From: Caldifarciminota bacterium
GTDB lineage: Bacteria; Hydrothermota; Tepidihabitantia; SM23-42
Length of the DNA stretch: 64,000 bases
Assembly: GCA_020349965.1 (NCBI GenBank)
Contig: CP070705.1
Coordinates: forward strand, 1,951,434-2,015,433
Direction: 5' to 3'
The notes beneath the pieces are model-generated. The model was given only the letters and a program-made list of their open reading frames with translations, did no database searches and was not told the DNA's origin. Position 1 is the stretch's first letter; each line of letters starts with the position of its first letter. This document shows positions 14,057-19,254 of this stretch, one piece after another. The position numbers were made by a program, and so were the translations under genes.

Positions 14057-15327
14057 TTAAAAGATACCAGACGAATGAACTATCCAGAGTATTGAACCAG
14101 GAGTATAGGTTCAAGAAATGGCTCGATGTGGAAAGAGTGGTTGCAGAAGTCGAAGAAGCCGAGGGGATCATTCCAAAAGGGTTGAGCCGAAAACTAAAGA
14201 ATGTCAAAGTCACACCGGAACGGATTGATGAGATCGAACGGATAACCAATCACGACGTGATCGCGTTCCTCGAAGCGGTGCGCGAAAAATTGTCGGGCGA
14301 AGGACGGTGGTTACACTTCGGATTGACTTCGTATGACCTTGTCGATACTGCATTCGTATTGATCATTGCCGAGGCAACGGATATTATTCTGCGAGATGTG
14401 AAGAAGCTCATTACGCAGCTCCGAAGGTTGAGCGTCAAATATAACAGCACGCCTCAAATGGGACGCACGCACGGTGTGTTTGCGCAACCCATCACCTTTG
14501 GTTACAAAGTTGCCTCCTGGTTCGAAGAAGCAAAGAGGAACTACGAGAGACTTTACGCCGCAAAGCGCGGCATATCTTTCGGCAAGCTGTCCGGTGCCGT
14601 CGGCACGTATACCATCCTGCCGCCGCGCATTGAGAAGAAAGTGATGCGGAAGTTGGGATTGAGCCCAGAACCGGTGAGCACCCAGGTCTTGCCCAGGGAC
14701 CGCTTCGCCGCAATGGCATCCGCCCTTACCCTCTACGCGTGCGGCCTTGACCGTATCGCTACAGAGATTCGCAACCTTTCACGTTCGGAGATCGGCGAAA
14801 TCTCAGAACCTTTCACTAAAGGGCAGAAAGGTTCCTCGGCAATGCCGCATAAAAAGAACCCGATAACGTGTGAAAGGATATGCGGTTTGGTTAAGGTCAT
14901 CCGTGGTTATTTAGTCACTGCCTTCGAAAATGTAAATCTCTGGCATGAGAGAGATCTCACAAACTCTTCTGCCGAGCGCGTAGTGTTCTCGGATATGCTC
15001 CATCTCGTACACTATATCACGTTGAAAATGCTCTGGATACTCAGGAATCTTCAGGTATTTCCTGAGCGTATGCTAGAGAACATCGAGATGAGCCATGGCG
15101 TTTATGCTTCACAACGACTCATGAATGCACTGATCGAGAAGGGGATGGACGGGGCAAAAGCTTATAGCATGGTGCAGAGTTTCTCTTTTGCCGCAGTTCG
15201 AACGAACACCGACCTGAAGGAAGTGGCGGCTGGGAACAAGGTGATCGGCAAATTCCTCAGCGCCAGTGAACTTGAAGAGATATTCGATATGAACTGGTTC
15301 CTCAGGCACATCAGGAAGACACGCTAG
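14053..15327 (+). CDS. purB: Adenylosuccinate lyase
   Basis: 424-residue fumarase/aspartase-superfamily lyase. The signature GSSAMPHKKNPITCE includes the flexible catalytic Ser loop. GRTHGVFAQPITFG carries the second catalytic His, and HFGLTSYDLVDTAF the third conserved segment. PurB acts twice in purine synthesis, on SAICAR and on adenylosuccinate. ATG overlaps the htrA stop, indicating translational coupling. Confidence 0.95.
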   Translation: MIKRYQTNELSRVLNQEYRFKKWLDVERVVAEVEEAEGIIPKGLSRKLKNVKVTPERIDEIERITNHDVIAFLEAVREKLSGEGRWLHFGLTSYDLVDTAFVLIIAEATDIILRDVKKLITQLRRLSVKYNSTPQMGRTHGVFAQPITFGYKVASWFEEAKRNYERLYAAKRGISFGKLSGAVGTYTILPPRIEKKVMRKLGLSPEPVSTQVLPRDRFAAMASALTLYACGLDRIATEIRNLSRSEIGEISEPFTKGQKGSSAMPHKKNPITCERICGLVKVIRGYLVTAFENVNLWHERDLTNSSAERVVFSDMLHLVHYITLKMLWILRNLQVFPERMLENIEMSHGVYASQRLMNALIEKGMDGAKAYSMVQSFSFAAVRTNTDLKEVAAGNKVIGKFLSASELEEIFDMNWFLRHIRKTR

Positions 15328-15687: not shown

Positions 15688-15715
15688 TTGACTCAGTGGC
15701 AGGGATATGTATAAT
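15688..15715 (+). promoter_or_regulatory. Promoter of the serine palmitoyltransferase-like operon
   Basis: TTGACT (15688-15693), 16-bp spacer, consensus TATAAT (15710-15715). The ATG at 15724 lies 8 nt downstream without a Shine-Dalgarno sequence, so a leaderless transcript is predicted. Confidence 0.75.
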
Positions 15716-15723
15716 ACACTTAA

Positions 15724-16908
15724 ATGGACCTATTCAAGAAGTGTGAAAATACGGTGAGGATGGTAACCGGGGCTCAGAACACCGGCATCTATCCCTATTT
15801 TACTCCTATCCAGTCGACGCAAGATCACCGTGTGATGATCAACGGTGAAGAATTCATCATGATCGGTTCAAATGGCTATCTGGGACTGGCAGCAGATCCA
15901 CGCATGAAGGAAACGGTGATCAATGCGGTGAAGAAATACGGCTCGACGTGCTCTGGTTCGCGCTTTCTCAATGGGACACTCGATATACACGTGAAGCTGG
16001 AGAAAGACCTTGCCGAATTCTTTGGTAAAGCCGGCGCCATCGTCTTCTCTACGGGTTTTCAGACTAATCTCGGCATAATCTCGGCAATTGCCGGCAAGGA
16101 CGATATTCTCATCATCGACCGGCAGAACCACGCATCGATAATCGACGGCTGTCGTCTGTCTTTTGCAGACATCAAGAAATATCCGCACAATGATATGAAC
16201 GAACTGGAGCGGCTTCTGAAATCGCTACCATCTGACAAAGGAAGATTGATAGTCGTCGACGGTGTCTTCAGTATGGAGGGCGATCTGTCGAATCTTCCGG
16301 AGATCGTACGGTTGAAGAAGAAATACAACACGAGACTGCTCGTCGATGACGCCCACGGGATCGGCGTGCTGGGCAAGAACGGCCGCGGTGCGTGTGAGCA
16401 TTTCAATGTGCTCGATGATACCGATATCATCATGGGCACTTTCAGCAAAGCATTTGCATCACTGGGTGGCTTTGTCGTCGCCGAACGCGATGCAATCATT
16501 CACATCAAGCACACGGCCCGCGCTCTGATCTTCTCCGCAAGCATGACGCCGGCATCCGTTGCGAGTGCTCAATTTGCTCTCGATGTAATAAAATCGGAAC
16601 CCGAACGGAGGGAAAGACTGTGGCATATCACCGAGCGCGTGCTGGAAGGTTTCAAGAAAATCGGGCTCAATGTGGGTGAGTGTGAAACACCGGTTGTCCC
16701 TGTAATCGTGGGGCCGGATGAGGTGTGTTTTGCCTTCTGGAAGAGATTGTTCGAGAACCGTGTATTTGCGAATCCTGTGATCTCACCGGCAACCCCGCCG
16801 GGACGAGCGCTCATACGAACGAGTTACATGGCAACGCATACGGACGGGGATATCGATATCGTACTCGATGTATTCGAGCGCTGCGCCAAAGAACTCGGCA
16901 TAGTGTAA
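15724..16908 (+). CDS. Alpha-oxoamine synthase, serine palmitoyltransferase-like
   Basis: 394-residue PLP enzyme of the KBL/AONS/SPT family, condensing an amino acid with an acyl-CoA. PLP Lys242 sits in GTFSKAFASLGG; DDAHGIGVLG and HASIIDG give the cofactor-contacting Asp and His. From memory, several segments resemble Bacteroidetes serine palmitoyltransferases more than KBL or BioF: GSTCSGSRFLNGTLDIH, VVDGVFSMEGDLSNLP, LIFSASMTP, FANPVISPA and TSYMATHT. The next gene is a GNAT-fold acyltransferase 9 nt away. Together they suggest 3-ketosphinganine and ceramide formation. The alternative is a 2-amino-3-ketobutyrate ligase, for which a threonine dehydrogenase neighbour would be expected; none is here. 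Confidence 0.72.
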   Translation: MDLFKKCENTVRMVTGAQNTGIYPYFTPIQSTQDHRVMINGEEFIMIGSNGYLGLAADPRMKETVINAVKKYGSTCSGSRFLNGTLDIHVKLEKDLAEFFGKAGAIVFSTGFQTNLGIISAIAGKDDILIIDRQNHASIIDGCRLSFADIKKYPHNDMNELERLLKSLPSDKGRLIVVDGVFSMEGDLSNLPEIVRLKKKYNTRLLVDDAHGIGVLGKNGRGACEHFNVLDDTDIIMGTFSKAFASLGGFVVAERDAIIHIKHTARALIFSASMTPASVASAQFALDVIKSEPERRERLWHITERVLEGFKKIGLNVGECETPVVPVIVGPDEVCFAFWKRLFENRVFANPVISPATPPGRALIRTSYMATHTDGDIDIVLDVFERCAKELGIV

Positions 16909-16917
16909 TTGCGTAGT

Positions 16918-18042
16918 ATGGTTTCAATCATACGTGTACAAAGCGAAAAAGAACTGAAGCAGTTCATCGAATTCCCTTATGAACTCTACAAGAACGACAA
17001 ATACTGGGTCCCGCCGCTGAAGCGAGATGTTTACCATCTGCTCGATACTTCAGAGAATCCATTCTGGGATCATTCGGAGCGGGAGATGTTCATTGCAATA
17101 CGGAACGAAAAGCCCGTTGGCCGCGTGGCTGCGATCGTCGACCGCAATTTCGTAAAATGCTGGAACGAAAACACCGGTTATTTCGGCTTCTTTGAGTGTG
17201 AGGATGACGTCGAGGCCGCAAAGGCACTCTACGCCGCGGTCACCGATTATCAGCGGGAAAAGGGCATGAGCAAGTTCATCGGTCCGATGAACCCTTCGAC
17301 GAACGAGGAATGTGGATTCCTGCTCGAGGGTTACTACTCGTCACCGTTCGTCATGATGACATACACACCGGAATACTACCATAATCTCTCACTCGAATCC
17401 GGCCTGACTAAGGCCAAGGATCTCTACGCGTATTATGTCGACACGGAAGACGCCCCAATCGAGTATCTCGAGAGGATTACGGCGGTCGTGCGCCGTCGCG
17501 TACCAGACCTCAAGGTGCGCCCCGTGAACATGAATGACTTCAATGCCGAGGTGATGAAGATCCGCGATGTGTATAACGATGCCTGGAGCCAGAACTGGGG
17601 TTCTGTTGCAATGACCGATGATGAGTTCAAGCAGATCGCTAAGAACCTGAAGCCGCTGATCCTGCCTGAGCTTGTGCTGATCATCGAGATCAATAACGTT
17701 CCTGCTGCCGTGTCTCTCTCGGTGCCGAATTACAACGAGGTCCTCAAGCGATTGAACGGTAAGCTCGGACCGATCGAGATGCTCAAGTTCATGTATTATA
17801 AGAGAAAAATCAGCGAGGCCCGGTTGGTAATAATGGGTGTGCGCAAGGAATTCCGCAAGCTTGGGTTGGAATCATTTCTTTACCTGGAATCCTTCAAAGC
17901 AGGCAAACGATTGGGGTATAAAGGAGGCGAGCTTTCCTGGACCCTCGAAGACAATCATGAAGTGAACAACGGCATCAAGAAGATGGGCGGGAAGCTCTAC
18001 AAGCAGTGGCGTATCTATCAGGGTACGGTCAATCAGCAATAA
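16918..18042 (+). CDS. GNAT-fold acyltransferase, candidate bacterial ceramide synthase
   Basis: 374 residues from the ATG at 16918 (a TTG 9 nt earlier is less likely). It shows the features of a large conserved GNAT-like family: YKNDKYWVPPLKRDV, PFWDHSEREMFIA, PVGRVAAIVDR, GYFGFFE, KFIGPMNPSTNEECGFL and MMTYTPEYY, with a second GNAT-like half containing VRKEFRKLGLESFLY. In Caulobacter the ceramide synthase is a GNAT-type N-acyltransferase clustered with serine palmitoyltransferase, which makes this pair suggestive. The substrate is inference. No third sphingolipid gene (ketosphinganine or ceramide reductase, dedicated ACP) is in the window. Confidence 0.6.
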   Translation: MVSIIRVQSEKELKQFIEFPYELYKNDKYWVPPLKRDVYHLLDTSENPFWDHSEREMFIAIRNEKPVGRVAAIVDRNFVKCWNENTGYFGFFECEDDVEAAKALYAAVTDYQREKGMSKFIGPMNPSTNEECGFLLEGYYSSPFVMMTYTPEYYHNLSLESGLTKAKDLYAYYVDTEDAPIEYLERITAVVRRRVPDLKVRPVNMNDFNAEVMKIRDVYNDAWSQNWGSVAMTDDEFKQIAKNLKPLILPELVLIIEINNVPAAVSLSVPNYNEVLKRLNGKLGPIEMLKFMYYKRKISEARLVIMGVRKEFRKLGLESFLYLESFKAGKRLGYKGGELSWTLEDNHEVNNGIKKMGGKLYKQWRIYQGTVNQQ

Positions 18043-18162: not shown

Positions 18163-19254
18163 ATGGCAAAGTACAGGATTGCCTGGATGCCAGGTGATGG
18201 CATAGGCAAGGATGTCCTTGATGCGACAAAGATTGTCCTCGATAGGATAAAGTTGGATGCTGAATATATTCCTGCTGACGTAGGCTGGGAATTCTGGTGC
18301 AAAGAAGGTGAACCACTCCCGGCTAGAACGATCGATATCATGAAGGAGACGGATTGCGCCATGTTCGGTGCGATAACTTCCAAACCCCGGACGATTGCCG
18401 ACAAAGAACTGATCCCCCAACTCCAGAACAAAGGATATATCTACAGGAGCCCGATTGTGCGTATGAGACAGTTGTTTGACCTTTTCATCTGCCGCCGTCC
18501 CTGTTTTGCTTACCCGGGCAATCCTCTGAACTACAAAGAAGGCATCGATTTCGTTATGTTCAGAGAGAATACAGAAGATCTATACTCGGGAGTCGAATAC
18601 TATCCCGTGCCCGAAGAGATGCTCAAGGTGAAGGGGATGGAGCGAGTGTCACGCGACGCCGCAATCTCGGTCAAAGTCAATACGCCACGCGGGTGTCGGA
18701 GAATAATAGAAGCTGCATTTGATTTCGCGCGGCAAAGGAAACGGAGAAAGGTTACGTGTGTCCACAAGGCGAATGTCGTGCGTGCGACCGATGGACTCTT
18801 CCTTGAGATATTCAACGAAGTATCCCAATCTTATCCAGAGATCCAACCCGATGAGGCGAATGTGGATTCACTGTGCCAGTGGTTATTGAAACGACCGCAC
18901 GACTATGACGTGCTGGTCGCGCCCAATCTCTACGGCGATATCATTTCGGACCTGTGCGCTCAGATGACCGGTGGCCTTGGTTTCGGGTCGAGCGGCAACA
19001 TCGGATCCGAATACGCAGTGTTCGAGCCGACCCATGGGTCTGCGCCGAAGTATGCGGGTATGTACAAGGTCAATCCCATTGCGACAATTCTGGCGGCAAA
19101 GATGATGCTGGAATGGCTCGGTGAGACCGAATCTGCGGAAAAGATCGAACGGGCGATCTGCAGGATTATCGAGGAGGGCCATGTTCGGACTTATGACATG
19201 GGGGGTGACGCTTCGAGCCTCCAAATGGCCGAGGCGATCGCAGCTAAATGCTGA
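18163..19254 (+). CDS. Isocitrate/isopropylmalate dehydrogenase-family enzyme
   Basis: 363-residue NAD(P)-dependent beta-hydroxyacid decarboxylating dehydrogenase. The family motifs are MPGDGIGKDV, FRENTEDLYSG, the substrate helix YIYRSPIVRMRQLFDLFICRRP, the lysine segment VHKANVVRATDG, the Asp cluster in PNLYGDIISDL, and FEPTHGSAPKYAG. The RSPIVRMRQ helix differs from classical isocitrate (SxNxxxR) and isopropylmalate types, so the substrate could be isocitrate, homoisocitrate or another 3-substituted malate. Ribosome site AAAGGAG lies 6 nt before the ATG. It opens a cluster with two LeuCD pairs, which act on the same class of compounds. Confidence 0.85.
   Translation: MAKYRIAWMPGDGIGKDVLDATKIVLDRIKLDAEYIPADVGWEFWCKEGEPLPARTIDIMKETDCAMFGAITSKPRTIADKELIPQLQNKGYIYRSPIVRMRQLFDLFICRRPCFAYPGNPLNYKEGIDFVMFRENTEDLYSGVEYYPVPEEMLKVKGMERVSRDAAISVKVNTPRGCRRIIEAAFDFARQRKRRKVTCVHKANVVRATDGLFLEIFNEVSQSYPEIQPDEANVDSLCQWLLKRPHDYDVLVAPNLYGDIISDLCAQMTGGLGFGSSGNIGSEYAVFEPTHGSAPKYAGMYKVNPIATILAAKMMLEWLGETESAEKIERAICRIIEEGHVRTYDMGGDASSLQMAEAIAAKC

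Follow-up and report, generated by a model that had tools for sequence, protein, structure and literature searches.

The analyzed window is a stretch of 64,000 nucleotides covering positions 1951434-2015433 of the 2,297,753-base, single-contig genome of an uncultured bacterium that belongs to the Candidatus Stahlbacteria/WOR-3 lineage or lies very near it. Two adjacent genes on the forward strand were examined. The spt-like gene at 15724-16908 begins with ATG and encodes an alpha-oxoamine synthase of 394 amino acids, a putative serine palmitoyltransferase (SPT). The bcerS/yghO-like gene at 16918-18042 encodes a tandem-GNAT N-acyltransferase of 374 amino acids, a putative ceramide synthase. The ATG at 16918 is the likelier start of this second reading frame, with a TTG at 16909 as the alternative. 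The spacing of 9 nt reported in the first-pass annotation is exact and extends from the spt stop codon (16906-16908) to the ATG at 16918. The two SPT-type motifs named there, SGSRFLNGTLDIH and FSMEGDLSNLP, were both found in the reading frame 15724-16908.

The upstream neighbor purB ends at 15327, which leaves 396 nt to the start of spt. The downstream neighbor icd starts at 18163, on the same strand as the pair and 120 nt past the GNAT gene; the interval from the GNAT gene to icd showed no terminator-like site. Additional genes follow the spt-GNAT pair in order-level relatives. The earlier proposal that the operon contains nothing else is thus plausible but not proven.

Promoter and Transcript

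The promoter of the pair is located at 15688-15715 on the forward strand and consists of TTGACT and TATAAT separated by 16 nt, with 11 of the 12 consensus positions matched. The end of the –10 box lies 8 nt before the spt start codon. The TTGACT hexamer, the –10 box, and a distance of 5-8 nt to the ATG are kept in 12 relatives at the genus, family, and order levels (11 aligned and the 12th alike), in line with the earlier suggestion that the pair has its own promoter. A scan for promoter motifs alone performs close to chance (5 found versus 3.2 expected), and the positional conservation in the 12 relatives is much better evidence. The short, conserved distance of 5-8 nt between the –10 box and the ATG indicates that the spt-GNAT mRNA is probably leaderless. 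A Shine-Dalgarno-like sequence is present at other genes of the window, such as icd.

Family Placement of the Two Proteins

The first protein was compared with family models, solved structures, and known alpha-oxoamine synthases. The top NCBIfam model is SerpalmtaseCFB (NF047600) with 537 bits, the best of 13 families; this score is below the equivalog cutoff of 640, and the protein is therefore classed only as SPT-like and not as a member of NF047600. In the PDB, the highest match is to the Sphingobacterium SPT (409 bits), followed by KBL (up to 238 bits), cysteate fatty acyltransferase (227 bits), and BioF (211 bits). A KBL/BioF/HemA/SPT tree had been proposed as a check. In a 63-row maximum-likelihood tree (IQ-TREE), the first protein falls in a 54-row SPT group that includes the Sphingobacterium, Bacteroidales, Sphingomonas, and Klebsiella-type SPTs and is split from Kbl, BioF, and HemA at 100/95; the tree contains a long branch for a Bacteroides plasmid protein, and some of its inner branches are unsettled. 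The window protein lies outside the separate clade into which the Bacteroidetes SPTs fall (100/99). A second alpha-oxoamine synthase, encoded at 233190-234215 of the same genome, is a KBL that joins the Kbl proteins of E. coli and Vibrio at 100/100.

The active site residues His136, Asp208, His211, Thr239, Lys242, Asn50, and Ser79 are the same as those of the Sphingobacterium SPT, whose residue roles have been described (PMC10196870). The PLP-binding lysine, the PLP-stacking histidine, the aspartate, the histidine, the threonine, and the GSRxLNG loop are all identical. The position of Ser79 is occupied by valine in KBL. Asn52 and Ser81 of the Sphingobacterium enzyme contact serine through water (PMC10196870), and both are kept in the window protein. 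From its sequence, the first protein would be a serine palmitoyltransferase that converts serine and an acyl thioester to 3-ketosphinganine.

Two other assignments of the first enzyme were considered. It could be KBL-like or BioF-like and act in threonine breakdown, biotin synthesis, or the formation of a secondary metabolite, with the GNAT protein serving as a small-molecule acetyltransferase. The high scores of the first protein against the TIGR01825, bioF, and Kbl models are compatible with this assignment, as is the acetylation of small polar molecules by structurally characterized tandem GNATs such as mycothiol synthase. The tree placement, the separate KBL in the genome, the serine rather than valine at position 79, the lack of tdh or bio genes beside the pair, and the recurrent linkage with CerR-like reductases (see below) argue against it and make it highly improbable. 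Alternatively, the first enzyme could use alanine, glycine, or cysteate to initiate synthesis of a ceramide analogue, a 1-deoxyceramide or a sulfonolipid-type lipid, to which the same GNAT adds the second chain. Alpha-oxoamine synthases are promiscuous, and the Sphingobacterium SPT accepts alanine and glycine at a low rate (PMC10196870). Anaerobes of the Black Sea are reported to produce 1-deoxyceramides, for which the use of other amino acid substrates has been suggested (PMC11334938). The cysteate fatty acyltransferase, however, matches at 227 bits versus 409 bits for SPT, and the serine-contacting residues equivalent to Asn52 and Ser81 are kept, an arrangement with which alanine is still compatible. 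This second alternative is considered unlikely, and serine palmitoyltransferase is the preferred assignment.

A plasmid of Priestia megaterium (Bacillales) encodes a protein that is 53.6% identical to the window SPT and carries the GSRFLNG and FSMEGD motifs. No YghO-type GNAT is annotated beside it.

The second protein has no match among the Pfam and NCBIfam models, and a phmmer search of the PDB returned no useful name and no solved structure. The GNAT family is matched by 71 of the 81 members of its alignment. The AlphaFold2 model built from this 81-sequence alignment has a pLDDT of 95.6 and a tandem GNAT fold, and the best solved matches to the model in Foldseek are tandem GNATs with TM values of about 0.6. 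The GNAT fold recognized in the first reading of the sequence is thus confirmed by the family matches and by the predicted structure.

A tblastn search of plasmids with the second protein identified a YghO-annotated protein. When YghO from E. coli B was used as the query, the GNAT protein was the single match in the window's genome (33% identity, E = 1.1e-59, query residues 7-377 of 380). The cluster members from Klebsiella and Roseomonas are 32% identical to the GNAT protein. In E. coli B, the neighbors of yghO are spt and the genes for an acyl carrier protein, a fatty acyl-AMP ligase, and an NAD-dependent reductase of the epimerase type. The published counterpart of Caulobacter CC_1154 in E. 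coli BL21 is yghO; CC_1154 belongs to a set of five genes that are needed for ceramide to form (PMC9386255). E. coli B YghO was used as the stand-in for Caulobacter bCerS in these comparisons. By this route the second protein is homologous to the bCerS/YghO family, the relationship that the initial reading had put forward. The backbone of the GNAT tree is without resolution and the E. coli/Roseomonas-type synthases occupy a long separate branch, so the homology is given by the sequence matches and orthology to bCerS is not given by the tree alone. The sequence kinship suggests that the second protein is a bacterial ceramide synthase that would N-acylate 3-ketosphinganine or sphinganine.

Divergent paralogues of the YghO family were found in related genomes. 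In two class relatives, divergent GNAT paralogues are arrayed in tandem, two or three together, and lack an SPT neighbor (L212:2272-6424 in G042 and L213:4675-7570 in G032); the array paralogues form their own well-supported clade in the GNAT tree. In a genome of the same genus (G003:C1:803000-814000, L208:1-11001), a divergent paralogue at L208:5182-6294 seems to share an operon with genes for a PEMT-DUF3419 fusion, a diacylglycerol kinase-like protein, a class II aldolase, a PLP decarboxylase of the Orn/DAP/Arg type, and a permease of the MacB/FtsX type. The DUF3419 portion of the fusion is one that we take to be BtaA-like. This operon could encode an unrecognized amino-lipid pathway.

Linkage, Conservation, and the CerR Candidate

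The loci beyond the phylum were the best 80 among the matches listed, and only the GNAT alignment was used to retrieve them; some are too short to show their neighbors, and the fractions obtained are not natural frequencies. An SPT gene is directly adjacent and on the same strand in 46 of these 80 loci (43 upstream and 3 downstream), which come from many phyla. In 27 of the 46, a CerR-like gene is also present, and 17 of the 27 have all genes on one strand with SPT before GNAT. Since SPT and CerR had no part in the retrieval, the linkage of GNAT, SPT, and CerR constitutes independent evidence. Clusters of this type include Myxococcus loci L152 and L161, and spt-GNAT-SDR clusters also occur in Rubrobacter, Streptomyces, and Aureispira. 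GNAT-type ceramide synthases had been described at the outset as known in Caulobacter and relatives. The family is not confined to that group, and the spt-GNAT(-cerR) cluster is found in many phyla. Three Acidobacteriota loci (L142, L156, and L164) have the reversed order, with GNAT before spt and a CerR-like gene upstream. The SPTs encoded there group in a long-branched clade of their own.

The adjacency bears on a third alternative, in which the first gene encodes an SPT, the GNAT acts on another lipid, and the two genes are neighbors for regulatory convenience. The divergent YghO paralogues of the class, some of them in other lipid-like operons such as that of G003 with its presumably BtaA-like protein, indicate that the family may have more than one acylation target. 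Against this, the adjacency of spt and GNAT recurs across many phyla, the YghO family includes the published CC_1154/yghO genes, and the GNAT protein is the sole YghO-family protein encoded in the window's genome. An unrelated lipid substrate is accordingly given very little weight, and an acyltransferase acting on the SPT product is preferred.

Within the lineage, a homologue of this GNAT was detected in 58 of 61 relatives. Among good-quality genomes, a match with E below 1e-60 is present in 40/43 of the class and in 17/55 elsewhere in the phylum; one genome (G006, 94% complete) is without the GNAT. The spt gene lies beside the best GNAT in all class relatives read around it, with GNAT identities of 42-80%; the two class loci without an SPT neighbor (L057 and L058) are second copies that were chosen as such. 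Because the genes are adjacent in every class-level relative read at the best GNAT, the pairing is more than chance.

A search of the genome for a CerR-like reductase, suggested as a further check, was conducted with an alignment of five SDRs taken from clusters that contain spt. The alignment matched nine places in the genome. The best match (220 bits) is a candidate at 1948490-1949476 of the genome, 18 kb upstream of spt and just outside the window; the next SDR of the genome scored 93.5 bits. With E. coli CerR as the query, the candidate scored 111 bits and the next match 50 bits. Each CerR sequence used singly as a query also has the candidate as its top match, with a clear margin for the sequences from E. 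coli and Klebsiella. Its assignment as a CerR-like reductase is by homology only, its identity to E. coli CerR is only 26%, and NCBIfam named only distant SDR families for it. Homologues with E below 1e-40 are present in 46 of 61 relatives and lie far from spt where both genes were placed. No CerR gene was found beside the pair in class relatives, where the neighbors are purB, icd, recG, ligA, and similar genes. All three genes are nevertheless present in the window's genome.

LpxC is present in the window's genome and in 53 of the 61 genomes searched, and Omp85 proteins are encoded in the genome. The idea that sphingolipids replace LPS in this organism was dropped for these reasons. Tentatively, the synthesis of a ceramide-type lipid, perhaps made with an amino acid other than serine, might be a near-universal trait conserved in the whole WOR-3/Stahlbacteria class alongside lipid A. 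If so, sphingolipids would belong to the normal makeup of the membrane rather than take the place of LPS.

Proposed Pathway and Comparison with Known Systems

The SPT clade placement, the YghO/bCerS homology, and the CerR candidate support the original ceramide-pair interpretation at the level of sequence. Of the two outcomes named beforehand as refuting it, a grouping of the first enzyme with KBL or BioF was not seen, and an unrelated GNAT is contradicted by the sequence homology to bCerS/YghO. The pair very probably encodes the enzymes for the first two steps of the bacterial ceramide pathway, with the CerR-like reductase encoded 18 kb upstream as a candidate for the third. From these assignments we infer the activities, the substrates, the order of the last two steps, and the lipid product. 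The spt and GNAT genes would be transcribed from their own conserved, probably leaderless promoter. Spt would condense L-serine with a long-chain acyl thioester to form 3-ketosphinganine. The acyl donor is probably acyl-CoA because the Spt is of the Bacteroidetes type and no acpR or aasR gene lies beside the pair. The GNAT of the bCerS/YghO family would acylate the amino group of the Spt product, and the CerR-like reductase would reduce the keto group to provide dihydroceramide. N-Acylation before reduction has been proposed for Caulobacter (PMC11087976).

The pathway is already known, and its presence in the Stahlbacteria/WOR-3 lineage seems not to have been described before. In the literature searched, no paper connecting Stahlbacteria or WOR-3 with sphingolipids and no lipid data for the lineage were found. 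The inferred bacterial sphingolipid producers now include an uncultured candidate phylum, represented by a single-contig genome, and the recurrent adjacency ties the YghO-type GNAT to SPT in phyla far from the Proteobacteria. The spt-bcerS pairs from many phyla are ready two-gene constructs for the debated question of whether N-acylation precedes reduction, and they are useful for mapping the evolution of the pathway.

Relative to the five-gene set of Caulobacter and E. coli B (aasR, cerR, acpR, spt, and cerS/bcerS = CC_1154/yghO), homologues of Spt, the YghO/bCerS-type GNAT, and CerR are all present here, whereas acpR and aasR are absent from beside the pair, the CerR candidate is 18 kb away, and the GNAT identity is 31-33%. 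For the bacteria treated in one study, cerS is always in an operon other than that of spt (PMC11324152); in the window, by contrast, spt and GNAT adjoin on one strand, an arrangement that would fit concerted expression. The Bacteroidetes SPTs (Sphingobacterium multivorum 3a2b/8guh, Parabacteroides, and Prevotella) share motifs and active site residues with the window protein and provide its best NCBIfam and PDB matches, but the protein is outside their clade and scores below the equivalog cutoff. A 2024 Black Sea study had already extended Spt-like enzymes, by inference, to 38 phyla, with bCerS and CerR homologues as frequent neighbors, and defined its "Spt-like" clade B by SPT homology together with such neighbors; WOR-3 is not named in its main text (PMC11334938). 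The adjacent spt-GNAT pair is shared with the spt-GNAT-cerR clusters of Rubrobacter, Streptomyces, Myxococcus, Zixibacteria, and others, where the CerR-like gene lies within the cluster, whereas it is detached in the window's genome.
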